Origin: Clostridium pasteurianum DSM 525 = ATCC 6013
GTDB taxonomy: Bacteria; Bacillota; Clostridia; Clostridiales; Clostridiaceae
Direction: 5' to 3'
Assembly: GCF_000807255.1 (NCBI RefSeq)
Contig: NZ_CP009268.1
Span: 2,448,384 to 2,512,383 of the forward strand
DNA: 64,000 bases
This document shows, one piece after another, positions 694 through 52,227 of this stretch. Each line of letters starts with the position of its first letter. The stretch's first letter is position 1. A model generated the notes under the pieces. The model saw only the letters and a list, made by a program, of their open reading frames with translations, made no database searches and had not been told where the DNA came from. The position numbers and the translations under genes were made by a program.

Positions 694-2358
694 TTACTTT
701 ATATCTTCTGGTTTCATGGCATTAGGAATATTTTTAATTTCATCCCATCTCTCTTTACTCAACCTGTAGCCTGTTCCTGGTCCCATATAATCATTACAAT
801 CATTCACTGCACTAACTACATTAAAATTCTTATCTATTATTGCGGATGTTTGAAGATAATCCCCTGATATTCTTTGTTTAAGCATATTAAGAATATTCTC
901 AGCTATATCATCAAAACCATGCTTACTCAGTGCTTTCACCACATCTATTCCAGTGATTCCTCTATTTATCATTTCCTCTGCAGCTTTAAGATCTTCCACT
1001 ACATTTCTTTCTGGCACATCTTTACTACCATGAGAATAAGTTACTGCTTCTACTTCTTCATCCGTAATAGCTGGAAGTTTTAATCCTTCAAATACAGCTT
1101 GTATTGCTCTAGCAGCCTTATTTCTTATAGTAATTACCTCTTCTTCTGAAACCGGTCTTAATCCGCCATCAACCATAAGATCTCTTTGAATCACATTATA
1201 ATCATCAAAATCTTCAGCATCAAAGTTAGAACCAGCAAACATATTATCATAATTTGGAACTGAACTATATCCTGAAAATATAAAATCTGTTCCAGGTAAC
1301 ATCTGCATAAGCATTCTCGCAGTTCTTCTTATATCTGAATGAGAGAAGGTTTGATCATTTGCAGATGCTACTTCTATATCCAGCATAGTAGTTATAAGAT
1401 TTTCTCCAAGTACTGCTCTTATTCCAGAAGGAAGAGCACCAGTCATTCCAATACAGCTTACTGAACCATTTTGTAAGCCTTGTACTCCTGCGGCTTTAGT
1501 TATATAAATACATCTAGCTTCAAGATAAAGCATTGATTTTCCCTCTGCATATCCCATTAAAGCTTCTGATCCTGATCCCGATGTAAATCTCATCTTTAAT
1601 CCTCTAGATGCGTAGGCTGATGCTAAAAATGCCTTAGACCAAGGAGTATCATCTCCATCTGTAAAAACATTTTCCGTGCCATATACAGAAACAGTCTCAG
1701 CATAACTTGTCAATCCTCTCATTCCAAGTTCCAATTCAGTAGCTTCCTCTATGGCACATTGAGTTAAAACGCCACCTCTGCCTACTTGTGCTCCCACCAA
1801 TAAAGCTAAAGCATTAAAAGGTGCATATCTAACAATTCCCACCGTAGTTTCCTGTTCATCAAATCCTCTTATGGCAGCTTCAGCTGCATCTGCTGCTATC
1901 TGTACTGGATTGTCTTTAAGATTTGTTACATGGCATTGATTAGATGGAGTTTTTCTTGCTCTCATTTTTTGAAGTGCCATCATCATTTCTACAACATTCA
2001 TATTACCTACAACTTCCACAATCTTAGCTGGAGTCATAGCTGTTGTAAGTTCTACAATTGTCTTTCTGTCTACATTAATGTCCACAAGCATTTTTGCCAA
2101 TTTTACTGAATCCATTTTAATAACATCTTCTGCTCTATTTAAATTTATTCCATAATTAGCAATAAATCTATCAATCATATCAAAATCTTCTCGATTTTTA
2201 CCATCCAATTCTATAACTTTTCCCTCTTTAATTTTAATACTAGGCTTTGGATCATTGGGACTACTCATTGCAATTAAACCCTCTTCAGGCCACTCTCCTA
2301 TAAATCCATCCTTATTTACAGGACGCTCTGATAATACTTGAAATCGTTTTGACTTCAT
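694..2358 (-). CDS. pduC: B12-dependent diol/glycerol dehydratase large (catalytic) subunit
   Basis: Alpha subunit forming the TIM barrel in which adenosylcobalamin radical chemistry dehydrates 1,2-diols or glycerol. At 554 residues it has the family's usual length and matches it throughout: SPNDPKPSIKI near the start, NPVQIAADAAEAAIRGFDEQETTVG, YGTENVFTDGDDTPWSK, FTSGSGSEALMGYAEGKSMLYLE, GVQGLQNGSVSCIG and SANDQTFSHSD. The last two carry the Ser and Gln substrate-contact positions known from diol dehydratase structures. The start has AAAGGAGG upstream. It is first in pduC-pduD-pduE; the 294-base upstream region carries tandem repeats that may bind a regulator. Substrate preference (propanediol or glycerol) cannot be decided by eye. 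A glycyl-radical diol dehydratase is excluded. Confidence 0.97.
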   Translation of the reverse strand: MKSKRFQVLSERPVNKDGFIGEWPEEGLIAMSSPNDPKPSIKIKEGKVIELDGKNREDFDMIDRFIANYGINLNRAEDVIKMDSVKLAKMLVDINVDRKTIVELTTAMTPAKIVEVVGNMNVVEMMMALQKMRARKTPSNQCHVTNLKDNPVQIAADAAEAAIRGFDEQETTVGIVRYAPFNALALLVGAQVGRGGVLTQCAIEEATELELGMRGLTSYAETVSVYGTENVFTDGDDTPWSKAFLASAYASRGLKMRFTSGSGSEALMGYAEGKSMLYLEARCIYITKAAGVQGLQNGSVSCIGMTGALPSGIRAVLGENLITTMLDIEVASANDQTFSHSDIRRTARMLMQMLPGTDFIFSGYSSVPNYDNMFAGSNFDAEDFDDYNVIQRDLMVDGGLRPVSEEEVITIRNKAARAIQAVFEGLKLPAITDEEVEAVTYSHGSKDVPERNVVEDLKAAEEMINRGITGIDVVKALSKHGFDDIAENILNMLKQRISGDYLQTSAIIDKNFNVVSAVNDCNDYMGPGTGYRLSKERWDEIKNIPNAMKPEDIK

Positions 2359-2444
2359 ATATAATCCTCCTTTATCAAATCTCTGTTGTTCTTATCTGTC
2401 TTTAATATAATCATAGCCTATATTGTTAAAATATTATCAAATAA

Positions 2445-2486
2445 TTTTGTCTTATTTTTATACTTTTTTGCTTATTATTTATACTT
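2445..2486 (-). repeat. Two tandem 21-bp direct repeats upstream of pduC
   Basis: Copies at 2445-2465 and 2466-2486 both begin TTTTG and end TTTATACTT on the plus strand and differ by two single-base indels. They sit about 90-130 bases upstream of the pduC start. A 21-bp period places both copies on the same helix face, as for AraC-type activators that bind direct repeats. The AT-rich context makes chance similarity possible. Confidence 0.55.
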
Positions 2487-2580
2487 AACTTTACCATTTG
2501 TATTTTTTTGCACTAAATATAATTTGCTATTAACAACATAATTTTACATAAAATATAGCTATTGAAAAGGTTTGTATATT

Positions 2581-2631
2581 AAAAAGTAGGCAATATAATT
2601 AAAATAATTCTAATTATCTTGCCTACTTTTT
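2581..2631 (-). terminator. Terminator hairpin between the kinase gene and the pdu promoter region
   Basis: Inverted repeat with arms AAAAAGTAGGCAA and TTGCCTACTTTTT, extended inward by partly paired ATAATTA/TAATTAT tracts. It lies just downstream of the kinase stop codon and ends in a T-run on the minus strand. The symmetrical A/T ends could also stop transcription from the other direction. Confidence 0.8.
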
Positions 2632-2652
2632 ATAGCATTAGTCTTTAAAAAA

Positions 2653-3885
2653 TTATTTAAATAATACTATTTTTACTTTTGTTCCCTTATTTTTTTTACT
2701 ATTTATGTTAAAATAATATTTATCTCCATAGAAATAATCTATTCTCTGTAATACATTATTAATACCAATTCCATTAGATGCCGTGTTTTGTATATACCTA
2801 CCATTAATATTATTTATTGATTCTAATTTATTTTTATCAATCCCTATTCCATCATCTTTAATAGCTATAACTGTAGAGTTACCTTCTTCATAAATATTAA
2901 TTTCTATTAATCCACCACTTTCCTTTGTCTCTATTCCATGAATAATAGAATTTTCAACAAAGGGTTGTATAATCATAAATGGAACTTTTATGTTTTTACA
3001 GTTTTCTTCTATAGTAATATTAAAATTCAATCTTGAATCAAATCTTATTTTTTGTAAATTTAAATATGACTTCACATAACTAATTTCATCTCCCAGCTGA
3101 GATACTTGATTTGTCTTTCTTAGTGTATATCTGAGAATCTCCGATAAATCACAGACAACTTCTTGAGTTTTAGGGGCTCCTTCAATTAGTGCTAATGCTG
3201 AAATACTATTCAATATATTAAATAAAAAATGAGGATTAATTTGGGATTGTAATGCTTTAAGTTGAGCATCTTTTAGTTCTTTTTCAAGTGCTGTTTTAAT
3301 TCCTTCAGCCTCCATAAATTCTATGTTTTTTTTATTTAGTTCCTGCTGTACTATTTTTAATGCTCCTTGATCTACTATATAGTTACTTATACGAAATAAC
3401 ATTTGTGCTATAGATTTAATCTTATCATAAGGTATAGTTGAAAGTTTCTTATATTGTTCTATAAGTTCTTCTTTTACTTCTACTTTTGTATCTACACTAA
3501 TAATGTTTTTTAATTCTAAAAGCTTGCTTTTTTCAGTTAACACCTGCCCAGCCATCAATGCACCTAAATATTGGCCTTTAAATATAATCGGAACTGCAAA
3601 ATCTATAATATTCATATAACATTTATATATATATGGTATTCCTCTTTTTACTGATTCTAATCCTCCTTTAGAATCACATTCTTGGCATAAAATTCTTGTA
3701 TTATTACCTTTACGGAGAGTTTTACAAAAATCAGTGCATCTGCTATGATTAGTTATTGGTTTCCCTCTATAATCCGTAGTAATAATTGAAATACCCATTG
3801 AATTGGCAATATCATCTTGAATTTTCTGAAATTCTTTAATTTTTATAATATCCTTCAAAAGAAGTTCAGCAGTCATATTTTCCAC
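2653..3885 (-). CDS. Soluble PocR-domain sensor histidine kinase (LytS/YesM type)
   Basis: Predicted cytosolic two-component sensor. Residues 15-165 form a PocR sensory domain with a cysteine cluster (FCKTLRK, LCQEC, YKCYMNIIDFAVPI) and GQYLGALMAGQVL. A coiled-coil linker (about 175-210) leads to the His_kinase domain with QSQINPHFLFN, phospho-acceptor His219. The C-terminal HATPase carries FVENSIIHG, DDGIGI and NGIGINNVLQRI. No membrane segment is visible. PocR-type domains are associated with propanediol/B12 regulation in clostridia, and the gene lies directly upstream of pduC in the same direction, which supports control of the dehydratase. No response regulator is encoded beside it in this window, unlike most LytS- or YesM-type pairs. 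The ligand is unknown. Confidence 0.9.
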   Translation of the reverse strand: MENMTAELLLKDIIKIKEFQKIQDDIANSMGISIITTDYRGKPITNHSRCTDFCKTLRKGNNTRILCQECDSKGGLESVKRGIPYIYKCYMNIIDFAVPIIFKGQYLGALMAGQVLTEKSKLLELKNIISVDTKVEVKEELIEQYKKLSTIPYDKIKSIAQMLFRISNYIVDQGALKIVQQELNKKNIEFMEAEGIKTALEKELKDAQLKALQSQINPHFLFNILNSISALALIEGAPKTQEVVCDLSEILRYTLRKTNQVSQLGDEISYVKSYLNLQKIRFDSRLNFNITIEENCKNIKVPFMIIQPFVENSIIHGIETKESGGLIEINIYEEGNSTVIAIKDDGIGIDKNKLESINNINGRYIQNTASNGIGINNVLQRIDYFYGDKYYFNINSKKNKGTKVKIVLFK

Positions 3886-3977
3886 CCCAAACTATTTTTT
3901 AATCCATTCAATATTATTGTATTATAAAGTTGATTAAATTCATAGATATTATTAATTTGCCAAGATTTTAATATAAA

Positions 3978-4022
3978 AAATAAGTAAGATAATTAGATTA
4001 CCATTAATTATCTTACTTATTT
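3978..4022 (-). terminator. Terminator of the sulfur amino-acid lyase gene
   Basis: Near-perfect inverted repeat with arms of 18 bases (AAATAAGTAAGATAATTA and its complement at 4005-4022) around a 9-base loop, 45 bases after the lyase stop codon on the minus strand. It is AT-rich but long, and ends in T-rich sequence. Confidence 0.75.
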
Positions 4023-4066
4023 CTGTTTAAAATACCCTATAAATTTTTTCTTAAATATTATTACTC

Positions 4067-5248
4067 TTAAGATAATCCACAACTGTCAAAAGCTTGTTTC
4101 AAGTCATTTATAATATCTTCCGGATCTTCAAGTCCTACACTGAATCTAAGATGTCCATCTTTAAACTCCTCAGGATAAAAATGATTTCTTTCATCTGTAG
4201 GTCCAGTATATACAATAAGACTTTCATCATGTCCAATAGACACTGCTGAGATAACAATCTTTAAAGAATTTACAAATTTATTATGTGTTTCTACATCCGC
4301 TTTAAGTCCAAAGGAAATAACTCCTGAAAACATAGTCATCTGTTTTTTTGCAATTTCATGCTGCGGATGACTTTTTAATCCTGGATAGGCAACAAATTTT
4401 ACTGATGGATGAAATTCTAAAAATTCTGCTATTTTAAGAGCACTATCACTATGCTGTTTCATACGTAAAGGTAAAGTAACAACACCACGCATTATTAGCC
4501 AAGCATTAAAAGGGCTTATGGCTCCTCCTACATTTACCATAGCTTCACGTTTAATCTTATCTATAAGTTCTCTATTACCAATTACAGCTCCTCCCATAGC
4601 ATCACCATGTCCATTTATGTACTTTGTTAAACTGTGAACTACAAGGTCTGCCCCCAATTCAAGTGGATGCTGTAAAAAAGGTGATGCAAAAGTACTATCT
4701 ACAGAAAGTAAAGCCCCTATCTCTTTAGCAATTTTTGATATTTCCTCAATATCACTTATCCTTGTAGTAGGATTTCCCGGTGTTTCTATGTGTATAAGTT
4801 TCGTATTTGGCCTTATTGCTTTTTTTATTTCATCTATATTGGCACTATCCACAAGAGTTGCTTCTATACCATATTTTTCAGGTAGATATTCATTTAATAA
4901 TCTATAAACTGCTATATATGATACGTTAGAACAAATAACATGAGAATTTTTATTTAAAAATGTAAAAAATACAGAGGACAGTGCAGCCACACCACTTGCC
5001 AGTACAACACAATCCTCTCCACCTTCTAAGGCCGCCAATCTTTGCTGAAGATAAGTTTGATTAGCAGAAGTATTTCTTGTATAAACTAAATTATTTGGAT
5101 CACTCCAATTGAGAGTTGATGCATCTTCTGGCAATCTATAGCTATTGGCCATAGTAATTGGTCTTCTTATAGCTCCTGTTTCTTTATCTATTTCATTACC
5201 TACATGAACACATTTTGTAATAAATTTAATTTTATCTTCCCTAGGCAC
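4067..5248 (-). CDS. Trans-sulfuration family PLP enzyme (cystathionine/methionine gamma-lyase or synthase-like)
   Basis: Fold-type I PLP enzyme of the Cys/Met metabolism family, acting on gamma-substituted amino acids such as cystathionine, methionine or O-acyl-homoserine. Family signatures are YTRNTSANQTYLQQRLAALEGGE, ETPGNPT, DSTFASP and the PLP-lysine segment HSLTKYINGHGD (Lys near residue 209). GTG at 5248 gives 393 residues, the usual family length, and has a G-rich ribosome-binding site about 5 bases upstream. A longer in-frame version adds a hydrophobic, poorly conserved N-terminus and is less likely. It stands alone between two non-coding stretches. Which reaction it performs cannot be decided from motifs. 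Confidence 0.88.
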   Translation of the reverse strand: MPREDKIKFITKCVHVGNEIDKETGAIRRPITMANSYRLPEDASTLNWSDPNNLVYTRNTSANQTYLQQRLAALEGGEDCVVLASGVAALSSVFFTFLNKNSHVICSNVSYIAVYRLLNEYLPEKYGIEATLVDSANIDEIKKAIRPNTKLIHIETPGNPTTRISDIEEISKIAKEIGALLSVDSTFASPFLQHPLELGADLVVHSLTKYINGHGDAMGGAVIGNRELIDKIKREAMVNVGGAISPFNAWLIMRGVVTLPLRMKQHSDSALKIAEFLEFHPSVKFVAYPGLKSHPQHEIAKKQMTMFSGVISFGLKADVETHNKFVNSLKIVISAVSIGHDESLIVYTGPTDERNHFYPEEFKDGHLRFSVGLEDPEDIINDLKQAFDSCGLS

Positions 5249-7591: not shown

Positions 7592-8394
7592 TATGGATCT
7601 ATTACAACTTCTGATAATAATACAGAATTATCATGTCCCAATCTATCAATTTCATTTTTAAGAATTGATGCTATTTTTTTTAATGCAGTCCATTCTGTTC
7701 CAAAGTGACCTGCGTCAATAACGGATATACCCATTTCTCTATAATCACTAGCATAATGATAGGTCACATCTCCTGTAATTATACAATCTACCCCTAACTT
7801 TCTACTTATATCCATATAGTCAGTTCCACTTCCATTAATCAATGCTATCTTTTCTATAAAATTTTCATCTTCTCCAACATATGTTAAATGAGTAAGATTT
7901 AGCTTTTGCTTTACTAAATTACACAATTCACAAAGCTGAATTTTCTCTTTCAAAATCACAATTCTACCAATTCCAGAATTTCCATCATTAAATCCTTCAA
8001 CCAGTGATGATTCTATAACTGTTGAATTAGAAAATCCTAAAATATCTACTAAAGTATCATTAAGTCCACCCTCTACAGAATCCAGGTTAGTATGACTTGA
8101 ATATAAATTTATATCATCTTTAATCAAATTCATAATTTTTTTCCCAAGGAGAGTTTCTGTAGTTATTGAACTTGGTTTTCTAAAAAGCAAAGGATGATGT
8201 GTAAATATAAAATTACAGTCTTTTTTCTTAGCCTCTTCAATTACAGCTAAAGTACAATCTAATGCAACTAAAACAGAACTTACATTATCTTCTGGATTTC
8301 CAATCATAAGTCCCACATTATCATAACTTTCACTTAATTCTTTAGGTGCAATACTGTTCATAATGGAACAGATATCTTTAACTCTTAAAGACAT
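7579..8394 (-). CDS. Nif3-like dinuclear metal-centre protein (DUF34, YqfO type)
   Basis: Conserved protein with a dimetal site, often annotated as a GTP cyclohydrolase I type 2 homologue; its true reaction is unsettled. Visible metal-ligand motifs are IFTHHPLLFR (HH near residue 66), YSSHTNLD (about 100) and the late GHFGTE. At 271 residues it is the short form, without the PII-like insertion of about 100 residues found in Bacillus YqfO. The start at 8394 lies within the last codons of trmK (10-base overlap), so the two are translationally coupled, an arrangement common in Firmicutes. Confidence 0.9.
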   Translation of the reverse strand: MSLRVKDICSIMNSIAPKELSESYDNVGLMIGNPEDNVSSVLVALDCTLAVIEEAKKKDCNFIFTHHPLLFRKPSSITTETLLGKKIMNLIKDDINLYSSHTNLDSVEGGLNDTLVDILGFSNSTVIESSLVEGFNDGNSGIGRIVILKEKIQLCELCNLVKQKLNLTHLTYVGEDENFIEKIALINGSGTDYMDISRKLGVDCIITGDVTYHYASDYREMGISVIDAGHFGTEWTALKKIASILKNEIDRLGHDNSVLLSEVVIDPYKMK

Positions 8395-9080
8395 TTTAAC
8401 AACTCCTTAAGCTTTACAATCTTTGTTTTTATTTCATTCTTTCTATTCATAGCAAGTCTGCTATTATCAATTATACTACTTAATATTTTATCATATTTTT
8501 CTATTTTAAAAAAGATATAATCTTTTAAAAGATAATGTTTTTTTTGTAGTAATTTTTCACTTATTTCACAATATATTGCATCTATATTTTTATTATTTTT
8601 ACCCTTATGGTAAGAAACTTTTATTATTTCATAGTACTTATTCTCATCTTTACAAAGTTCTTCATCTAGTATATTATGTCCATTCTTTAATATATATTCC
8701 CTAAGTACCTCTGGATTTTGAACGGGTTGCAATATTACATAATTTAATTTTTTAAAAACTTCAATACTTTCTTCTAATATATCCCTTATTAGATTTCCAC
8801 CCATTCCAGCTATAACAGCACAATCTGCTTCTCCAGGAATAATAGTTGTAAGACCTGGTCCCAATCTGCATTGTATGCTATTAGATTTATGAAAAAATTT
8901 GATATTTTTTTTCGCCTTTTCTACAGGACCTTTATTTATATCTGAAGCAATAGCAGTTTTACAAATTTTCTCATCTATCAAATATATTGGTAAATATCCA
9001 TGATCTGTTCCTATATCTGCCATACACTCACATTTATCAACCATATTTGCTATAGTTTTCAACCTATTACTTATATCCAT
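8385..9080 (-). CDS. trmK: tRNA (adenine(22)-N1)-methyltransferase
   Basis: SAM-dependent enzyme that methylates N1 of A22 in tRNA. It has the Rossmann methyltransferase core: CECMADIGTDHGYLPIYL (motif I, about 17-35), AIASDINKGPVEKA (motif II) and CAVIAGMGGNLIRDILEE (motif IV, about 90-110), then YVILQPVQNPEVLREYI, which is diagnostic of the TrmK/YqfN family. A C-terminal coiled-coil helix pair (about 165-231) completes the usual length. It follows rpoD and a PH-like membrane gene and overlaps nif3, matching the Bacillus sigA-yqfN-yqfO order. Confidence 0.93.
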   Translation of the reverse strand: MDISNRLKTIANMVDKCECMADIGTDHGYLPIYLIDEKICKTAIASDINKGPVEKAKKNIKFFHKSNSIQCRLGPGLTTIIPGEADCAVIAGMGGNLIRDILEESIEVFKKLNYVILQPVQNPEVLREYILKNGHNILDEELCKDENKYYEIIKVSYHKGKNNKNIDAIYCEISEKLLQKKHYLLKDYIFFKIEKYDKILSSIIDNSRLAMNRKNEIKTKIVKLKELLKCL

Positions 9081-43599: not shown

Positions 43600-44628
43600 C
43601 TAAACCATAGCACTTTTTATTATAAGCAATTCTAATTTAACCCTTTCATTACTTCCTTGACTTTTTAGTTCCCTTTCAGTTTCAATACATATTTCTTCTG
43701 ATTTTATTATTTGTTCCAACGTGTATTTTTGACATTGTCTCATCATCTTTTCGCATATAAAGGGATGAAGCCTATATTCTTTAGCTAGCTCCTCCTTTCC
43801 CCTTTTATTCTCCATACCAATTTTTAAATTCATCATAATTCTAAATTGTCTTTCTATCATCGATAAAATATTTGTAGCTTTTTCTCCCTTATAAATAAGC
43901 TCTGATAAAACTTCTATAGCTCTTTCCGGTCTTCTTTGAGATAAAAAATCCACAAGATTAAAAATATCATTATCACTTTTTTGTGGAAGAAGATCTAAAA
44001 TATCTTGTTTTTCAATATTTCTTCCTTCCGTATAACAACAAAGCTTATCTACCTCATTTTTAATTATATCCATATTATTTTCAACTTCACTGCAGAAAAA
44101 ACTTAAATTAGTTCTGTCAATATTTTTCCCTTTCTCATTAAATATTTCCTTTACTTTATTTTGAAGCATAACACCTTTTAATTTAGTAAATTCTACTACA
44201 CAAGCATTTTTATCTAACCGTTTTACTTTACTACTGATTTTTTCCCTATCATTATCAAAAACATAATACATAATTAATATACTTTGTTTTGGGAAATCCT
44301 CACTATACTTTTTTAATTTTTTTAATATGGTATCTCCATTTTTATTTATATGCTTAGTTCTGTCAGAAAGAAAATCTGCCCTATAGACAACTATAACTTT
44401 ATTATCACTCATAAAAGGCAACGTTTCACAGGAATTAATTATTTCTTCATAAGTTACAGCCACTCCATCAAATTCAAAATAATTTAAATCTAAAAAATCA
44501 TTATTTACTGAAAGCTTAACAATTTTTTTAATACTATCTTTTATCATCTGTTCATTATGACCACAAAATATATAAAAATTATCTATTGTCTTTTTTATTC
44601 TACTGTCTAAATCTAAAAAATTAATCAT
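43600..44628 (-). CDS. holA: DNA polymerase III delta subunit
   Basis: Clamp-loader subunit that opens the beta clamp. The N-terminal ATPase-like domain has NFYIFCGHNEQMIKDSIKKI and ETLPFMSDNKVIVVYRADFL. The later VENNMDIIKNEVDKLCCY and IFNLVDFLSQRRPERAIEVLSELI blocks are characteristic. ATG at 44628 with GGAGGATG upstream gives 342 residues, the usual length. It lies directly downstream of comEC, a common Firmicutes order, and is transcribed towards rpsT. Confidence 0.93.
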   Translation of the reverse strand: MINFLDLDSRIKKTIDNFYIFCGHNEQMIKDSIKKIVKLSVNNDFLDLNYFEFDGVAVTYEEIINSCETLPFMSDNKVIVVYRADFLSDRTKHINKNGDTILKKLKKYSEDFPKQSILIMYYVFDNDREKISSKVKRLDKNACVVEFTKLKGVMLQNKVKEIFNEKGKNIDRTNLSFFCSEVENNMDIIKNEVDKLCCYTEGRNIEKQDILDLLPQKSDNDIFNLVDFLSQRRPERAIEVLSELIYKGEKATNILSMIERQFRIMMNLKIGMENKRGKEELAKEYRLHPFICEKMMRQCQKYTLEQIIKSEEICIETERELKSQGSNERVKLELLIIKSAMV

Positions 44629-44678
44629 TTCATCCTCCAATATTACATATTTGCATCTAGACAAAATTCAAAAAATTT

Positions 44679-46460
44679 TTAATCCGTATAAACTATAACT
44701 CTATCTGCAAATATTTGAAAATTAATATTGTTCTTAGGTAAATCAATACTTCTATTTTTTTTATTTATATTGACTTTCATTATATCATAATTTTTATTCA
44801 TCTTCATGGTTTTATACTTTACAGTATCCCCTTTAAAATCAATTAGTGAAATCCTATTATCCTTTTTAATAACTTTTATTATATTATTCTCCTTTCCTTG
44901 ACATTTAGGTATATAAATTAAATACTTAGCTATTGCAATTTTATAATCTTCACTATAATTGCTCATAAAAGTATCTACGCTTAGCATTCCCTGCAATCTA
45001 CTCTTTTCATCTTCATCTTTTATTTCATAATTAGCTATTAAGATATCTTCACCTCTATATCGTACTATAAAACCGCTGCCATTTTTTAAAGCAACATGAT
45101 CTATCTTTGGAAAGAAGTTATATTGATAAATTATTATAGCTAAAAGTAATATTATAGGAGCAAATTTTAATTTTTCATAGCCTTTTTTCATAAGTATATA
45201 ACAGGGATATAAAAATAAAATAAATATTGTATTTATAGTTGATATATATACAATTGGTGGAGATACTTTCATCAGTGATACAGTGCCTCCATTAATTGAC
45301 ATCATTATAATATTGATAAATGCACATACTAGGTTGAAAATAGGCTTTATAAAACTTACAACTAAAGCTATATTTGATAGAATTACAATAATAGAATATA
45401 GTGGAATAATAAATAAATCCCCTAAAAGAAATCCTAAAGCAAAATTTTTAATACTGAATAGAACATAAGGCATAGAAAGAGACTGTGCACTTAAAGTCAA
45501 ACTTATACTTTCATTTAATCTAAGGGGTAGTCTATATAGTACTTTAGATAACTTTTTATAAAATAAAATTATTCCCAATGTTGATAAAAATGAAAGCCCA
45601 AATCCAATATTTATAACATAATAAGGTTTAATCATAAGCAGAATCATAGCAGCTATACTCAATGACGAAAAAGCATCATAATTTTTAGTAAGTTTTTTAG
45701 ATAGCTTTAATACAATTATCATTATAAGTGATCTCAAAGTAGCTGCCTGAGATCCTGTAAATATGGTATATATAATGGAAATAAATATAGATATCTGTAA
45801 ATTTAAAAAGCTTTCCAGCACTTTAAATATTATTGCCATATGAAGACCTGATACACTTATAACGTGTACTATTCCAAGTTTTTTAAAATCATATTTATCC
45901 TCCATAGACAAATAAGAAGTATCACCAAAAGCTACAGACATTATTTTTGCAGTATTTCTTTCTCCAAATTTCCAATAGAATTTATTATATATATTTTTTC
46001 TAAAGGAATACAAATAGGAAATGGTATCTCTCTGTTTGTCTTTAACATATTTAACTTTAAAATCACCTAGACTTCCATTCTCATAATCTATATTTTTTTC
46101 AAATTCTCCAGTGACAGTTATTTTTTCTCCTTGTTGAACATCAAAAATATTTCCACTAATACTTATATTCCTACCTTTATAATTTCCCGTAGCATAAAAT
46201 TTATTTTTTGTAATAATTCTAAAGGTATAACTAGATTTATTGGTTAAATCCAATTTAAAATATAAATTAAAATTTATGAATCCTATTATAAAAAATCCTA
46301 TTACGATAAAACTATACTTTTTTTCACAGCTTAACACTATAATGATAAAAAAAGATGCAGCAATAGCTACATCTAAAAATAAGTTTATTTGTAGAATCAA
46401 AGCACAAATACATCCCATTATCATGGAAATACAAAAATATACAAGAGGCTTATCCATCAT
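44679..46460 (-). CDS. comEC: ComEC/Rec2-type DNA uptake channel without the C-terminal metallo-beta-lactamase domain
   Basis: Polytopic membrane protein of the competence DNA channel. The N-terminal OB-containing region (about 30-150) is followed by the competence domain: FGDTSYLSMEDKYDFKKLGIVHVISVSGLHMAIIF (cited in part as ISVSGLHMAI) and about eight helices (about 190-440). The C-terminal 150 residues are soluble, but no HxHxDH metal motif is present and the whole chain is 593 residues, against more than 700 for full ComEC. It overlaps the 96-residue gene upstream by 4 bases and precedes holA. The truncation may reflect a lineage-specific variant. Confidence 0.85.
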   Translation of the reverse strand: MMDKPLVYFCISMIMGCICALILQINLFLDVAIAASFFIIIVLSCEKKYSFIVIGFFIIGFINFNLYFKLDLTNKSSYTFRIITKNKFYATGNYKGRNISISGNIFDVQQGEKITVTGEFEKNIDYENGSLGDFKVKYVKDKQRDTISYLYSFRKNIYNKFYWKFGERNTAKIMSVAFGDTSYLSMEDKYDFKKLGIVHVISVSGLHMAIIFKVLESFLNLQISIFISIIYTIFTGSQAATLRSLIMIIVLKLSKKLTKNYDAFSSLSIAAMILLMIKPYYVINIGFGLSFLSTLGIILFYKKLSKVLYRLPLRLNESISLTLSAQSLSMPYVLFSIKNFALGFLLGDLFIIPLYSIIVILSNIALVVSFIKPIFNLVCAFINIIMMSINGGTVSLMKVSPPIVYISTINTIFILFLYPCYILMKKGYEKLKFAPIILLLAIIIYQYNFFPKIDHVALKNGSGFIVRYRGEDILIANYEIKDEDEKSRLQGMLSVDTFMSNYSEDYKIAIAKYLIYIPKCQGKENNIIKVIKKDNRISLIDFKGDTVKYKTMKMNKNYDIMKVNINKKNRSIDLPKNNINFQIFADRVIVYTD

Positions 46461-46747
46461 TTTCTTGCCTCATTTAATGAATCTGGAATTTTATATTCCT
46501 CAAGTTTAAAATTCCTATCATAATTAACCGCTACAGTTATTTTCATTATTCCACGAGAATCATCAATACTTATTTCCTTAACTTCAGGTATACCATCTCT
46601 GCCTTTTTCCTTAAAATAATTATCCACCAAATTTTGTGCTGAATCCCTATTTAAATTATCGTACTTAAATAAGAAGTCTTTTTTAGGCATATCTAAATAT
46701 ATAGTATTACTGTCTTCACTAACAGTTTCAAAAATATCTTCCATCAT
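46457..46747 (-). CDS. Small unrecognised protein upstream of comEC
   Basis: 96 residues, acidic, without membrane segments or cysteines. It contains KKDFLFKYDNLNRDSAQNLVDNYFKEKGRDG followed by a strand-forming KEISIDDSRGIMKITVAVNYDRNF. GGAGGTGG lies about 7 bases before the first of two adjacent ATGs (46747). Its end overlaps the comEC start by 4 bases, so the two proteins are translationally coupled and probably work together. I do not recognise the family. Confidence 0.75.
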   Translation of the reverse strand: MMEDIFETVSEDSNTIYLDMPKKDFLFKYDNLNRDSAQNLVDNYFKEKGRDGIPEVKEISIDDSRGIMKITVAVNYDRNFKLEEYKIPDSLNEARK

Positions 46748-46883
46748 AATATCCACCTCCGTGTTATTATCTTATCCAATAACCTAAGGCCTTAAACAAA
46801 ATATATAATATAATATATGTAAAATAACAAATCTCTATTTGTATATATATAATCTATCCATATTAATTATTAAATAAATATAA

Positions 46884-49484
46884 TCATATTATTTCTGTAT
46901 TTTTTTTTGAAATATTTTTGATTAATATAATTAATACATATAAAACTAAACTTCCTACAATAATATTTATATCTTTATTATTTATAAATTTTAAATCAAA
47001 TAAATCTTTAGCAAAATTTGTATATAATATACCACAATTAATTATAATATAAATTAATATTATTCCATTAAAATATAGATTTTTAAACAAATTTCTTTTT
47101 ATTATAAATATTATCTGTAAAAAATACAATATAGATAAAGCCACTGTTTCATAAGCATTACTTTTCATGATTTTAGAAACATAGAATCCTAAGAAGGTTA
47201 TACCACCTAATAAAATGGAATTTAACAATAGATTTTTTCTAACATATGTAAAGGAAACATCATTTATTACATCATCTTCGCTATCTTCAATTTCATAATA
47301 ATCTCTATTTCCATTATTACATGAGAAAAAAATTGCTATAGATAGTAAAAATCCATTAAATATATTATTCCAAAATATATTTTTTAAATTAAAAGGTATA
47401 CCAGAATTAAAAATTACACTTAAAATAAAAATGAGAAATTCACTAAGACTAAATATACATAGACATCTAATAATTTTTCTTATAATGTATATATAATTTT
47501 TGCTGGATTTTATCAAGTCTAATAATTTATTAAAATCCATATTTTCAAAATAAATATCACTAATTTCTTTTATTATATTACTACATTTATTTCCAAAGGA
47601 AATATGTATATTAGCTGTCATAAACGAAGGTAAATCTATAATGGTATTGCCAATTAACATAAGCTTATGATTTAGCTGTATATATTCATTCATTAACTTT
47701 AATTTATTGTAAGCTTTTATTCTTGAAAAAATACTAACTTTTTCTACAGCTCTTTCTATATCTGTTTTATTCATATAATCAATTTCTACATCAGAAACAA
47801 CCATATCTGATGCATTTAATATTCCTATTTTTTTACCAAAAGCCTCAGCACTAAGCTTATTTTCCTCTGTAAAAATTATAGGTTTTATTGTCATTGGTCT
47901 ACATCTTTCAATAGGATTATTTTCAAATTGATTCATTACTGGATTATCAAAAGCAGCTAATCCGGCAAAAACCATATTACTCTCTATATTCTCATTTCTG
48001 CTTGGTTTATAATTAAAATTTCTATAACCAAGAGCCAATACATAAAGACCTTCACTTAATAAACTTATATTAGAATTTTTTATATTCTCAATATCCTCTT
48101 TTGTTATTTCCTTTTCAATACCATTTCTCATAATATGAGTGCATTTTTTTATAATTTCTTTTAAATCTCCTTTTATATAGGCTCTATATTTTTTATCAAC
48201 TTTGTTTATTGTAGTTTTTATTCCGCTTTCTTCTTCATAGGGAAGTTTTAGTAATCTTTTGTGAATTTCATCCAATATACTCTTTTTTATATTATATTTA
48301 TTTCCAAACACTACAAAAGCTTTCTCCATAAGTTCGTCTTTTTCATTGTAGTTACATTCATCTTTTACATCATTACATAGAATCCCTATTTCCAATATTC
48401 TTTTTGTATTATCATTTATAATAAAATTTCTCTCTAAATTATGAATTTCACTTACATCATAAATCTTTTTTAAAATCATTAATTTTTTTGTAACTATTCC
48501 TATTTTATCCATACAAATTACATCTGTATTAGCTATACTTTCAATTTTTTCAATATTATTTAGAAATATTTTTTCTTTTTTTTTCTTTTTTCTAATAATA
48601 AAATACATAAAAATTACTATCAGTATTGAGTAAATAGGAACTAATGTACTAAAAATAGCAGCCGAAATCCCTATGTAATTATTATAATTATCGCCTCTGA
48701 ATCTGCTAATAATAAATATTATTATTAAACCTATAAATCCCATTATAGATAAAATATTTTGTATATTGTATGTATTTTCATAAAAACTACTATTATTCTG
48801 GCAAATATTAATAAGAGGATTAACATATTTGCCTATTTCTGTATTTAGCCCTACTGCTACTACTATGCCTTCCCCACTTCCTCTATGAACTGTAGAAGAT
48901 TTAAATAGTATATTCTTCATCTCAGATTGATTTAAGTCATTTTTATTAATTTTAGCAGAATACTTTTCTACTATATTTTGATCACCTGTAATTGACTCTT
49001 CTCTTACCATTAGTTCATCACAATTAGTTATTCTTACATCTGCTGGTATAATACTTCCTTTTTCATAAGTAATTATATCCCCAACTACTACTTCTGTATT
49101 TTTTATACGAATTAAGTTACCATTTCTTATTACATTACAATATCCAAAATTTAGCTTATGCAACAATATAAAAATTTTCTGGTTTCTATATTTTCTAAAA
49201 ATAATTATAAAAATATTTGTTGAAAGTATAATCAATAAAATTACTGCTGAAATAAAACTACCTATAACAAATTGCACAATAATAGCAATTACCAAATAAA
49301 TTATCCACGGTTTAAATAATTTTTTAGATAAATCTATAAATAATCTATTTTTCTTTAACTTTATTTCATTGGAACCAAAATCCTCTCTATTTTTTAAAAC
49401 TTTGTTATCATCTAAGCCTTTATTACTATCACTTTGAAATAAATTCACTACATCAGTCCATGATAGATTACACCAATCTGTCAT
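46884..49484 (-). CDS. P-type ATPase homologue with altered catalytic motifs (probable pseudoenzyme)
   Basis: 866 residues with the P2-type (calcium-pump-like) layout: cytosolic N-terminus, M1-M2 (about 60-97), actuator domain (100-230), M3-M4 (240-297), phosphorylation/nucleotide domain (300-645) and four to six C-terminal helices. Key motifs are altered: TGES is TGDQ (166-169), the M4 PEGL is VPIYS (282-286), DKTGT is DKIGI (326-330), the TGD hinge is FTEEN (538-542) and GDGxNDAP is GNTIIDLP (612-619). The phospho-Asp (D326) and the nucleotide-site KGD (438-440) remain. Active transport is therefore doubtful. It reads uninterrupted with normal local base use, 136 bases upstream of the comEC pair. 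Confidence 0.85.
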   Translation of the reverse strand: MTDWCNLSWTDVVNLFQSDSNKGLDDNKVLKNREDFGSNEIKLKKNRLFIDLSKKLFKPWIIYLVIAIIVQFVIGSFISAVILLIILSTNIFIIIFRKYRNQKIFILLHKLNFGYCNVIRNGNLIRIKNTEVVVGDIITYEKGSIIPADVRITNCDELMVREESITGDQNIVEKYSAKINKNDLNQSEMKNILFKSSTVHRGSGEGIVVAVGLNTEIGKYVNPLINICQNNSSFYENTYNIQNILSIMGFIGLIIIFIISRFRGDNYNNYIGISAAIFSTLVPIYSILIVIFMYFIIRKKKKKEKIFLNNIEKIESIANTDVICMDKIGIVTKKLMILKKIYDVSEIHNLERNFIINDNTKRILEIGILCNDVKDECNYNEKDELMEKAFVVFGNKYNIKKSILDEIHKRLLKLPYEEESGIKTTINKVDKKYRAYIKGDLKEIIKKCTHIMRNGIEKEITKEDIENIKNSNISLLSEGLYVLALGYRNFNYKPSRNENIESNMVFAGLAAFDNPVMNQFENNPIERCRPMTIKPIIFTEENKLSAEAFGKKIGILNASDMVVSDVEIDYMNKTDIERAVEKVSIFSRIKAYNKLKLMNEYIQLNHKLMLIGNTIIDLPSFMTANIHISFGNKCSNIIKEISDIYFENMDFNKLLDLIKSSKNYIYIIRKIIRCLCIFSLSEFLIFILSVIFNSGIPFNLKNIFWNNIFNGFLLSIAIFFSCNNGNRDYYEIEDSEDDVINDVSFTYVRKNLLLNSILLGGITFLGFYVSKIMKSNAYETVALSILYFLQIIFIIKRNLFKNLYFNGIILIYIIINCGILYTNFAKDLFDLKFINNKDINIIVGSLVLYVLIILIKNISKKNTEII

Positions 49485-49664
49485 AAAAAATTTACCTCCA
49501 TTAATTACTAATATATTTTTATTATACTAAAATATTATATTTTATTAAATATGAAAATTTTTAACTATAAATTTTGAAATCATAGTCACTTTCATAAAAG
49601 ATTTTATATATTAATAAGGAAGGATATTTTATTATTATACTGCAGTACCAATAGGGGTGATTTT

Positions 49665-50177
49665 ATGGATACTTCAAATGTTCCAGTAGATATATTTGAA
49701 AGTCTATATTCAGTTGATCGCCATCGTTTGCGTCACAATTTAAGGGATAAATATACTTTTTTAGGTCAAGGTGCAAGCAGAATGGTCTACCAATTTGATG
49801 AAAACTTTGTAATCAAAATATCTAAAAATAGAACTGGAAAATATCAATCTAGAACTGAAAATTACATTTTTAATAATATTGATGAAAAATATAAAAAATA
49901 TTTTTGTCCTATAGTATGGTATAAGGAAAACATGGTAGTTATGAGAAAAGCTTTACCTTTTACGGAAATGCTTGGAGTAAGACATGGAAACATTTTTGAA
50001 TTCACTAACATTAGGCCAGATAGTGAATTTTTTCAAACTCTAAAAAAAATTGCAAAACATTATGACCTGCTCTATCCAGATGTAAAAACAATTTCCTCTT
50101 GGGGAATATTAGATAAAAAGCCTGTACTAATTGATTATGGTTGTACCAATAGATTATATGACGAATACTTTTATTAA
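49665..50177 (+). CDS. Miniature protein-kinase-fold protein
   Basis: 170 residues. A glycine-rich loop FLGQGASRMVYQF (about 32-44), ATP-site lysine in FVIKISKN (about 51) and a Glu in RTENYIF (about 66) match a kinase N-lobe. The C-lobe is very short; LIDYGCTN (about 156-163) replaces DFG, and the catalytic HxDxxxxN loop is not visible (the place is taken by YPDVKTISSWGILD). This layout resembles phage-type small kinase-like proteins. GGGGTG lies 5 bases before ATG. Partners are unknown. It is divergent from the P-type ATPase gene; the 180 bases between are AT-rich and hold no other gene. Confidence 0.7.
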   Translation: MDTSNVPVDIFESLYSVDRHRLRHNLRDKYTFLGQGASRMVYQFDENFVIKISKNRTGKYQSRTENYIFNNIDEKYKKYFCPIVWYKENMVVMRKALPFTEMLGVRHGNIFEFTNIRPDSEFFQTLKKIAKHYDLLYPDVKTISSWGILDKKPVLIDYGCTNRLYDEYFY

Positions 50178-50344: not shown

Positions 50345-51466
50345 CTATATACTTTCATTATCATTAAATTTATTTTCATCCTCTTTAAAAGTTTTTATAA
50401 TATTTAACATTTTTTCTTTGTCATAATTATAATTTGAATCCAATGTCCAAGCTATTATCTGTTGAAAATTATCTTTAGTTTCAAGAATTATATATAGATA
50501 TCTTATTTTTATCTTATTCATATATCCTGTAATTTCAAATTGAATTCCTTTATGATTATTTATTTTTGTATTTTTTGAATTTTCTATTCTAGCGTTATCT
50601 ATACTCTTATGTATATTGCTTTTAATAATATTAGAATATTGTTCTAAAGTAAGTTCCTTTATAATATCTTCCTTGTTTTCAGATATAACGATAATATAGT
50701 TTTTATTTTTTTCATTAGATAACTGAAAAATTGCGTCACTATTGAGTTTTCTATTCTCATCCCACCCCTCTGGTAATGTTATTTCATATTTATCTTTACA
50801 ACCAGTTAAAACTTTATTGCTGCTTATATTTATGTAATCACTACACTTATAAGTAATTAAAATAAAAGTTATACTTATAATAATAGGAATTATCTGCTTT
50901 ACAATAATTTTTTTTATATTTAACTCTTTTGTTAAATTGATAAACTTTATCCAACTATTTAATAATACATTATGGCAAATAACTTCTGTGTAATTCAGTT
51001 CTTCAGAATCTATTTTTTCTTTATTATAATATAACAATTGTAAGTCCTTCATTCTTACTACATAAGTATTAGTAAATACATCTCCAAGTCTCCGCTTATC
51101 TTTCGAAATAAAAATAAATATTACAGACACTAATCCAAAAAGTAAAAAAGGACTAAATTCTAAAATTTTTATAAATGTACGTATTATTCCCTTTAAAAAC
51201 CCAGGCACAGATAAATCCTTATTTAAAACTTTTACACCCATTATAAGCTTTCCCCAAGTATAGCCAGTTAATCCTTCTAAAAGTGAATAGTATATAAGTA
51301 TAACGGAGAAAATTCTTATAATCATCTTAATATTAAGTTCTCCTTCAAATGCCAATTCCAAATATAAAAAAATTACTGCAAAAATTAATATATCAATTAT
51401 CATAGCAAAAAATCTCAATATTAGAATACTAAAATTATATTTGGATACTACATTTTTTATATCCAT
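50345..51466 (-). CDS. RDD-family membrane protein with a C-terminal extracytoplasmic domain
   Basis: Residues 10-140 form an RDD domain: LRFFAMIIDILIFAVIFLYLEL, TGYTWGKLIMGVKVL and RRLGDVFTNTYVV near 130. A fourth helix (about 200-220) leads to a C-terminal domain of about 150 residues starting CKDKYEITLPEGWDENRKL. This begins like the extracytoplasmic folds that often follow a lipid-anchored or membrane segment. RDD proteins are implicated in ion tolerance and protein insertion, but the function here is unknown. The start has GGAGGC upstream. It lies between copy C and comEA. Confidence 0.8.
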   Translation of the reverse strand: MDIKNVVSKYNFSILILRFFAMIIDILIFAVIFLYLELAFEGELNIKMIIRIFSVILIYYSLLEGLTGYTWGKLIMGVKVLNKDLSVPGFLKGIIRTFIKILEFSPFLLFGLVSVIFIFISKDKRRLGDVFTNTYVVRMKDLQLLYYNKEKIDSEELNYTEVICHNVLLNSWIKFINLTKELNIKKIIVKQIIPIIISITFILITYKCSDYINISSNKVLTGCKDKYEITLPEGWDENRKLNSDAIFQLSNEKNKNYIIVISENKEDIIKELTLEQYSNIIKSNIHKSIDNARIENSKNTKINNHKGIQFEITGYMNKIKIRYLYIILETKDNFQQIIAWTLDSNYNYDKEKMLNIIKTFKEDENKFNDNESI

Positions 51467-51558: not shown

Positions 51559-52227
51559 TTAATTTATTTCTATATATTCCATAATTTTTTCTGCCCTTTT
51601 TGGCCCTATGGCTTTTTCTAAATCCTTTTGGGAATTTATTCTTCCATTGTTCTTTTCTCTGTATTCAACAATCTTTTTAGATAATCCCTTTGCTATTCCA
51701 GGTATTTTTTTATTTACTATATCCTCTTCTGAAGCAGAATTTATGTCTAATTTTTCATTTTCATTATTAGAGCCTGAATCACCTGAATTATTTAAAGATG
51801 AATTGCTTTCCGATTTATTTATATTTATTCCCTTTAATTTATCTTGCTTTGATTTAATTTCTATATTATCTCCATCCACTACTTTTTTTGCTCCATTAAT
51901 ACTATAGGGTTCTGAGTTTTCTGTAAAACCGCCAGCTAGATCTATTAAATCTTTGATTCTGTCACCACTTTTTAAGGAGTACACTCCTGGATTTTTAATT
52001 TCTCCATAAATTTGTGCTTTTATTTCCTTTTTTCCATCACTATCTTTCGTATTTTGTATTTCATTATTCGCTTCATTATAATTGTTTTCCATATTTTCTT
52101 CTTTATATATAGATATATTATCATTTTTTGAATTTGCCTTTTCATTTTGTAATCTGTATCCAACAAATAGGAATATTAAAAATATAGATAATATTATAAT
52201 AGACCCTAAAAATTTCTTCTTATTCAC
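51559..52227 (-). CDS. comEA: Competence DNA-binding protein ComEA
   Basis: Membrane-anchored receptor for double-stranded DNA during uptake. Signal anchor (about 7-25), a low-complexity Asn/Glu/Ser linker, an SLBB domain (KAQIYGEIKNPGVYSLKSGDRIKDLIDLAGG, about 70-125; cited in part) and a C-terminal helix-hairpin-helix (LDINSASEEDI, KIPGIAKGLSKKIVEYRE, about 158-222). The GTG start has CAGGAGG upstream. It is expected to pass DNA to ComEC, encoded 5 kb away in the same direction rather than in one comE operon. Confidence 0.93.
   Translation of the reverse strand: MNKKKFLGSIIILSIFLIFLFVGYRLQNEKANSKNDNISIYKEENMENNYNEANNEIQNTKDSDGKKEIKAQIYGEIKNPGVYSLKSGDRIKDLIDLAGGFTENSEPYSINGAKKVVDGDNIEIKSKQDKLKGININKSESNSSLNNSGDSGSNNENEKLDINSASEEDIVNKKIPGIAKGLSKKIVEYREKNNGRINSQKDLEKAIGPKRAEKIMEYIEIN

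Follow-up and report, generated by a model that had tools for sequence, protein, structure and literature searches.

The window, a stretch of 64,000 nucleotides of the Clostridium pasteurianum DSM 525 genome, carries at 46884..49484 on the minus strand an intact frame of 866 codons, preceded by a GGAGG ribosome-binding site 10 nt 5′ of the ATG (49495..49499, minus strand). By sequence, domain and structure-model comparison, the product is a pseudo-P2A-ATPase. Downstream on the same strand lie a gene for a 99-aa protein that matches no family (46457..46756), the gene for a 593-aa ComEC that it overlaps by 4 nt (44679..46460), and holA, which was recognized by domain and family models as encoding DNA polymerase III delta (43600..44664). 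The Competence domain alone was matched in this ComEC, which scores 65.1 bits against the 190-bit cut-off of TIGR00361, and no beta-lactamase-like domain was found in it. The small protein and truncated ComEC that the initial annotation had placed beside the pump are both there, and the ComEC neighbor is a trait of the whole family. Upstream, again on the minus strand, is a ComEA-like protein with SLBB and HhH domains (51559..52227) that falls below the cut-off of NCBIfam comE. Between it and the pseudo-pump is a membrane protein of the RDD type, whose C-terminal part weakly matches PsbP (50345-51466, minus strand). A divergent 170-aa ORF on the plus strand (49665-50177) has no Pfam match; by eye, its start resembles the glycine loop of protein kinases. 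A PADLOC search for defense systems with three window proteins gave no match.

The window protein has the full P2 fold, with A, N and P domains and 10 transmembrane helices as assigned by DSSP on the model, against 9 membrane segments by a hydropathy count. It passes the NCBIfam model of the P-type ATPase superfamily, TIGR01494 (82.5 bits, cut-off 62.3), and scores below the cut-off of each of the 13 other listed NCBIfam models. Within this fold, TGES reads TGDQ (residues 166-169, 48978..48989), the M4 PEGL reads PIYS (residues 283-286, 48627..48638), DKTGT reads DKIGI (residues 326-330, 48495..48509), the TGD hinge reads TEE (residues 539-541, 47862..47870) and GDGxND reads GNTIID (residues 612-617, 47634..47651), all on the minus strand. 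The ion-site acids are also replaced, by I284 in M4 (SERCA E309) and by G711 in M6 (SERCA D800). D326, K327, K594 and D617 are retained, and KGD stands at the KGA position of the nucleotide site (residues 438-440, 48165..48173, minus strand). The protein thus lacks what a functional P2A Ca2+-ATPase requires, namely DKTGT, TGES, TGD, GDGxND and the M4 and M6 acids. The initial annotation had claimed the same motif alterations (giving the M4 motif as VPIYS), the intact frame and the P2 topology, and the sequence and the structure model agree with it on each.

It is useful to set this protein beside its known relatives. Its top match by both sequence and structure is LMCA1 (lmo0841), the P2A Ca2+-ATPase of Listeria, which has the same full-length fold and topology and about 21% identity to it in structural alignments. 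However, LMCA1 has DKTGT, TGD and GDGVND where the window protein has DKIGI, TEE and GNTIID. The window genome, a single contig of 4.35 Mb, encodes at least six other P-type ATPases. These (L002-L007) belong to the same superfamily, at 22-30% identity to the pseudo-pump, yet all six have intact DKTGT, TGD and GDGxND, with PESL for PEGL in L003 and KGS for KGA in L007, and a branch with support 100 sets them apart from the pseudo-pump family. YloB-type sporulation Ca2+ pumps are P2A relatives tied to spore formation, and they are active pumps. One protein, CPR_2026, is tabulated as yloB-like (PMC4433262). A further likeness, by motifs only, is to the mammalian P-type ATPase ERMA (TMEM94), in which DKQGI stands for DKTGT, GSSANL replaces GDGVND and TGES is absent (PMC13322241). 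Unlike the window family, ERMA is eukaryotic, is reported there to transport Mg2+ and has an occluded nucleotide pocket; its D427N mutation abolishes the reported Mg2+ uptake (PMC13322241).

An orthologue search of 206 Clostridiaceae genomes (E ≤ 1e-90) recovered the family in 122 genomes and 29 of 46 genera, and a profile search added 17 hand-picked loci, bringing the set to 139 of 206 genomes and, with genus labels added up, 33 of 46 genera. Eight of the added loci score 632-726 bits and so overlap with unread, probably canonical matches of up to 646 bits; the sole match examined in the 632-646-bit overlap, L013 of genome G003, is canonical, and all eight low-scoring loci have comEC in their flank. 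Since the profile search considered four candidates in each genome, additional divergent copies may exist among the other 67 genomes, in which the gene was not recognized. In an even sample of the order, the top score among the 19 genomes from two other families was 639.6 bits, within the range of canonical paralogues, the matches being unread. The canonical comparison set consists of 11 paralogues from four genomes, all of the window's genus, with L016, L017 and L020-L025 excluded. Open frames in the 139 loci run from 739 to 919 aa, the shortest lying partly at contig ends. Stop codons occur inside the search alignments of the orthologues in G069, G089, G146, G173, G174, G175 and G189, where the alignment probably overruns the gene end.

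The same motif classes are lost across the 139 orthologous loci, so that the window's substitutions recur throughout the family, as the initial annotation had proposed to check. DKTGT, GDGxND and PEGL are intact in none, TGD in 1, TGES in 6, TGE in 95 and KGA in 34; among the 11 canonical paralogues, DKTGT, GDGxND, TGD and TGE are intact in all 11, TGES and KGA in 10 and PEGL in 9. The phospho-Asp (SERCA D351), described earlier as kept, is indeed present in the window as D326, but this does not hold as a family feature, since it is retained in 88 of 139 loci and replaced in 51 (by E in 22, K in 16, N in 8, P in 4 and G in 1). The Lys that follows it (K352) is invariant, whereas Thr is found at the T353 position in 3 loci. 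The hinge Gly has become Glu or Asp in 132 of 139, the D601 position is Asn in 128, and the Mg2+-binding Asp D703 is replaced in 116 and kept in 23. The last acid of GDGxND (D707) survives in 137 loci, as D in 125 and E in 12, and the K684 and T625 positions are kept in 132 and 123, respectively. At the nucleotide-site KGD, also said to be kept, the family has K or R at the K515 position in 120 of 139 loci and Gly in all 139. R560 is an ATP contact in SERCA, and its position holds Arg in just 5 of 139 loci, which weakens the case for nucleotide binding. In the membrane, the M4 E309 position is Glu in 5 loci and the M6 D800 position is acidic in none; the M6 position of SERCA N796 still has Asn in 121, and the M5 E771 position is Glu or Gln in 97. 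D351, D703 and E183 are retained together at a single locus, L123, which is without T353. These substitutions are not random: some positions have settled on a new class of residue, and other positions drift. Taken together, the sequences give good support to the loss of a working P-type cycle.

The gene is under purifying selection. In 15 close pairs, dN/dS of the pseudo-pump ranged from 0.06 to 0.21 with a median of 0.106, far under 1, which points to a maintained gene and not a decaying one. The median for comEC in the same pairs was 0.149, and the pump was the lower of the two in 13 of 15, although a number of the comEC stretches are incomplete and certain pairs have a member in common. The orthologues have therefore lost catalytic residues while selection persists, as expected of a pseudoenzyme. 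A tree built from 46 members of the family, 6 divergent ones and 11 canonical paralogues separates the canonical set by a branch of length 1.17 with SH-aLRT 100; it was made by a quick method, with canonical rows from the window's genus alone and one long branch flagged. The maintained pseudo-pump of the initial annotation is thus borne out by motif loss in the 139 orthologues, by low dN/dS and by the branch that separates the canonical paralogues, and pseudo-pump status is well supported at the level of sequence; ligand, partner and role we infer.

Conservation is concentrated in the cytosolic part of the protein. With domain limits set by us, positions near fixation (≥0.85) number 22 in the A domain, 38 in the N domain, 11 in the second P part and 6 at the N-terminus, with 2 in the first P part, 1 in M5-M10 and none in M1-M4. 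In 13 of the 15 pairs, dN/dS of residues 300-700 was lower than that of the part beyond 700. A family-specific conserved segment, RxFxYxPxxxENIESNxVF (residues 488-506, 47967..48023, minus strand), emerged from the family alignment. Within it, R488, Y492, P494 and E501 stand at a rounded weighted frequency of 1.0, and the 11 canonical paralogues deviate at most of these positions. Fixed in the family and not in the paralogues are R362, R434, E457 and most of R488-V505, just N-terminal to the hinge motif. The near absence of such positions from the membrane, and their abundance in the A and N domains, fit a protein that is anchored by its membrane part and functions through its cytosolic head. 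They also agree with the tentative role of sensor, scaffold or nucleotide-binding regulator put forward in the initial annotation, although any nucleotide binding would be putative.

Neighborhoods were listed for 81 loci, the window and the best 80 of 96 matches. comEC lies downstream in 78 of these and holA in 76, followed by genes that we take, from sequence features, to be rpsT (70, on the opposite strand), gpr (72), spoIIP (64) and lepA (66). The order comEC-holA-rpsT-gpr-spoIIP-lepA is a familiar one in Bacillota. Thus, the synteny is partly ancestral, and the neighbors may be bystanders. Over the full set, comEC is in the flank of 136 of 139 loci; of the three others, L061 and L143 reach a contig end and L267 has holA and a spoVAC/E match. 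Since comEC is present in 200 of 206 genomes, its co-occurrence with the pump is uninformative on any link between them. Upstream in the listed neighborhoods are clusters of spoIIAA/spoIIAB/sigF (30 of 81), spoVAC/E and spoVAD (29) and comEA (24), and Pfam, run on one example per sporulation cluster, returned STAS, HATPase, sigma-70, SpoVAC/SpoVAEB and SpoVAD. A gene with DKTGT lies near the pseudo-pump in one listed neighborhood, that of L189 from Clostridium algidicarnis (1852-4404, plus strand, about 3.6 kb upstream), and the L189 pseudo-pump may be confused with this intact pump in the following figures. The 99-aa cluster occurs in 19 of 81 listed neighborhoods and the 170-aa cluster in 5. 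comEC is directly next to the pump in 53 of the 78 listed loci with both, at a median gap of 42 nt and within 100 nt in 44 of the 53, and the spoVAE-pump gap has a median of 154 nt over 24 loci with the two adjacent. This longer gap does not imply a transcript shared with spoVA.

SpoVAD is found in 138 of 139 pseudo-pump genomes against 57 of the 67 others (Fisher p 6.6e-5, kinship ignored), and 60 of the 139 loci have spoVA genes in the retrieved flank. The spoVA genes of C. beijerinckii are organized as a single operon that is induced after sigG (PMC3395874). A scan with a sigma-F/G consensus, allowing one mismatch, had hits upstream of the gene at 4 of 81 loci (5%, where shuffles gave 8%); these 81 include the L189 intact pump, and one short-flank locus was left out. 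The gpr positive control was weak too, with 11 of 72 (15% against 8% in shuffles). Without an excess over shuffles, the scan does not speak for direct control by sporulation factors. The literature searched yielded no expression data for the pseudo-pump.

How might such a protein be explained? Recent or local decay is ruled out by dN/dS together with motif loss throughout the family. More generally, the idea of a decaying pseudogene draws on the lost motifs and on genomes that lack the gene or show a clean deletion of it, but open frames at all 139 loci, the low median dN/dS and the family-wide shift of several positions to one residue class leave it almost no probability. The P domain could instead have turned into a different HAD-type enzyme, a proposal with which the retained K352, T625 and K684 positions and the surviving final acid in motif IV agree; given that the nucleophile is replaced in 51 loci and the Mg2+ Asp in 116, we consider it highly improbable.

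Continued transport deserves more weight, although we still judge it unlikely. The protein would then carry some substrate, either passively or through a non-canonical cycle, much as has been claimed for human ERMA, for which Mg2+ uptake is reported in spite of similar motif losses (PMC13322241). The window's D326, K327, K594 and D617 and the family's M6 Asn and M5 Glu or Gln agree with such an activity, whereas the loss of the phospho-Asp in 51 loci, the complete loss of the acid at the D800 position and the conservation of the membrane part, the lowest in the protein, speak against it. Alternatively, the protein could be a dead subunit that pairs with one of the cell's active P2 pumps and tunes it. 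There is precedent for inactive paralogues that regulate active ones, the window genome has canonical paralogues in which DKTGT, TGD and GDGVND are unaltered, and at L189 a gene with intact DKTGT is close by. As that is the only such gene in 81 listed neighborhoods, and as P2A pumps are mostly monomeric, we find this pairing very doubtful.

We consider it reasonably probable that the protein no longer pumps and serves, anchored in the membrane, as a sensor or scaffold that acts via its cytosolic head; among candidate partners, ComEC comes first. The protein belongs to an old clostridial family of pseudo-P2A-ATPases that has retained the fold and the ten-helix topology, and in which the motifs for phosphorylation, Mg2+ binding and dephosphorylation and most of the ion site are altered. 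A ligand or partner may bind the head, either in what remains of the phosphate pocket (K327, T539, K594, D617) or at the patch 488-506. The signal would then pass to a membrane neighbor, possibly ComEC, whose gene follows directly downstream, in those spore-forming lineages where both genes survive. The ComEC partnership is the weakest link of this explanation. A more specific version seems rather unlikely to us: a whole bacterial lineage would have converted the calcium-pump scaffold into a ligand-reading, non-pumping receptor that controls an adjacent ComEC channel or another forespore membrane process, which would make it, on a P-type ATPase fold, the bacterial counterpart of the pseudokinases.

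P-type ATPases are textbook pumps, and their defining motifs are thought to be inseparable from the fold. A family without DKTGT or GDGxND under strong purifying selection indicates that the scaffold can be retained for another use. Since the window gene passes the NCBI P-type ATPase model, annotation pipelines will probably label it a pump. We recognized no description of this family in the literature searched, which covered few subscription papers and no supplementary tables.

Finally, the gene has probably been lost more than once. In G003, of the same genus, the pseudo-pump is gone from between the 175-aa and 99-aa genes (L145, about 8010-8420), leaving a 35-aa N-terminal remnant, and comEA, comEC and holA are intact around the deletion. 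The distance between SpoVAD and ComEC matches is 973-985 nt in G021, G022, G035 and G061, against 3,641-3,747 nt in four gene-bearing genomes, and in G021 a spoVAE-sized ORF and the comEC frame stand 35 nt apart. Given such clean losses in several genomes, any role is dispensable. With intact and deleted relatives within one genus, a clear conserved patch and laboratory species among its hosts, the family offers natural test material. In G010, G014, G019, G032 and G045, the same distance is 7.8-11.8 kb. Judged by eye from translations, the slot between spoVAE and comEC in G019 (L278, 2799-9987) is filled by seemingly unrelated genes, among them an ArsR-like regulator and an ABC exporter pair.
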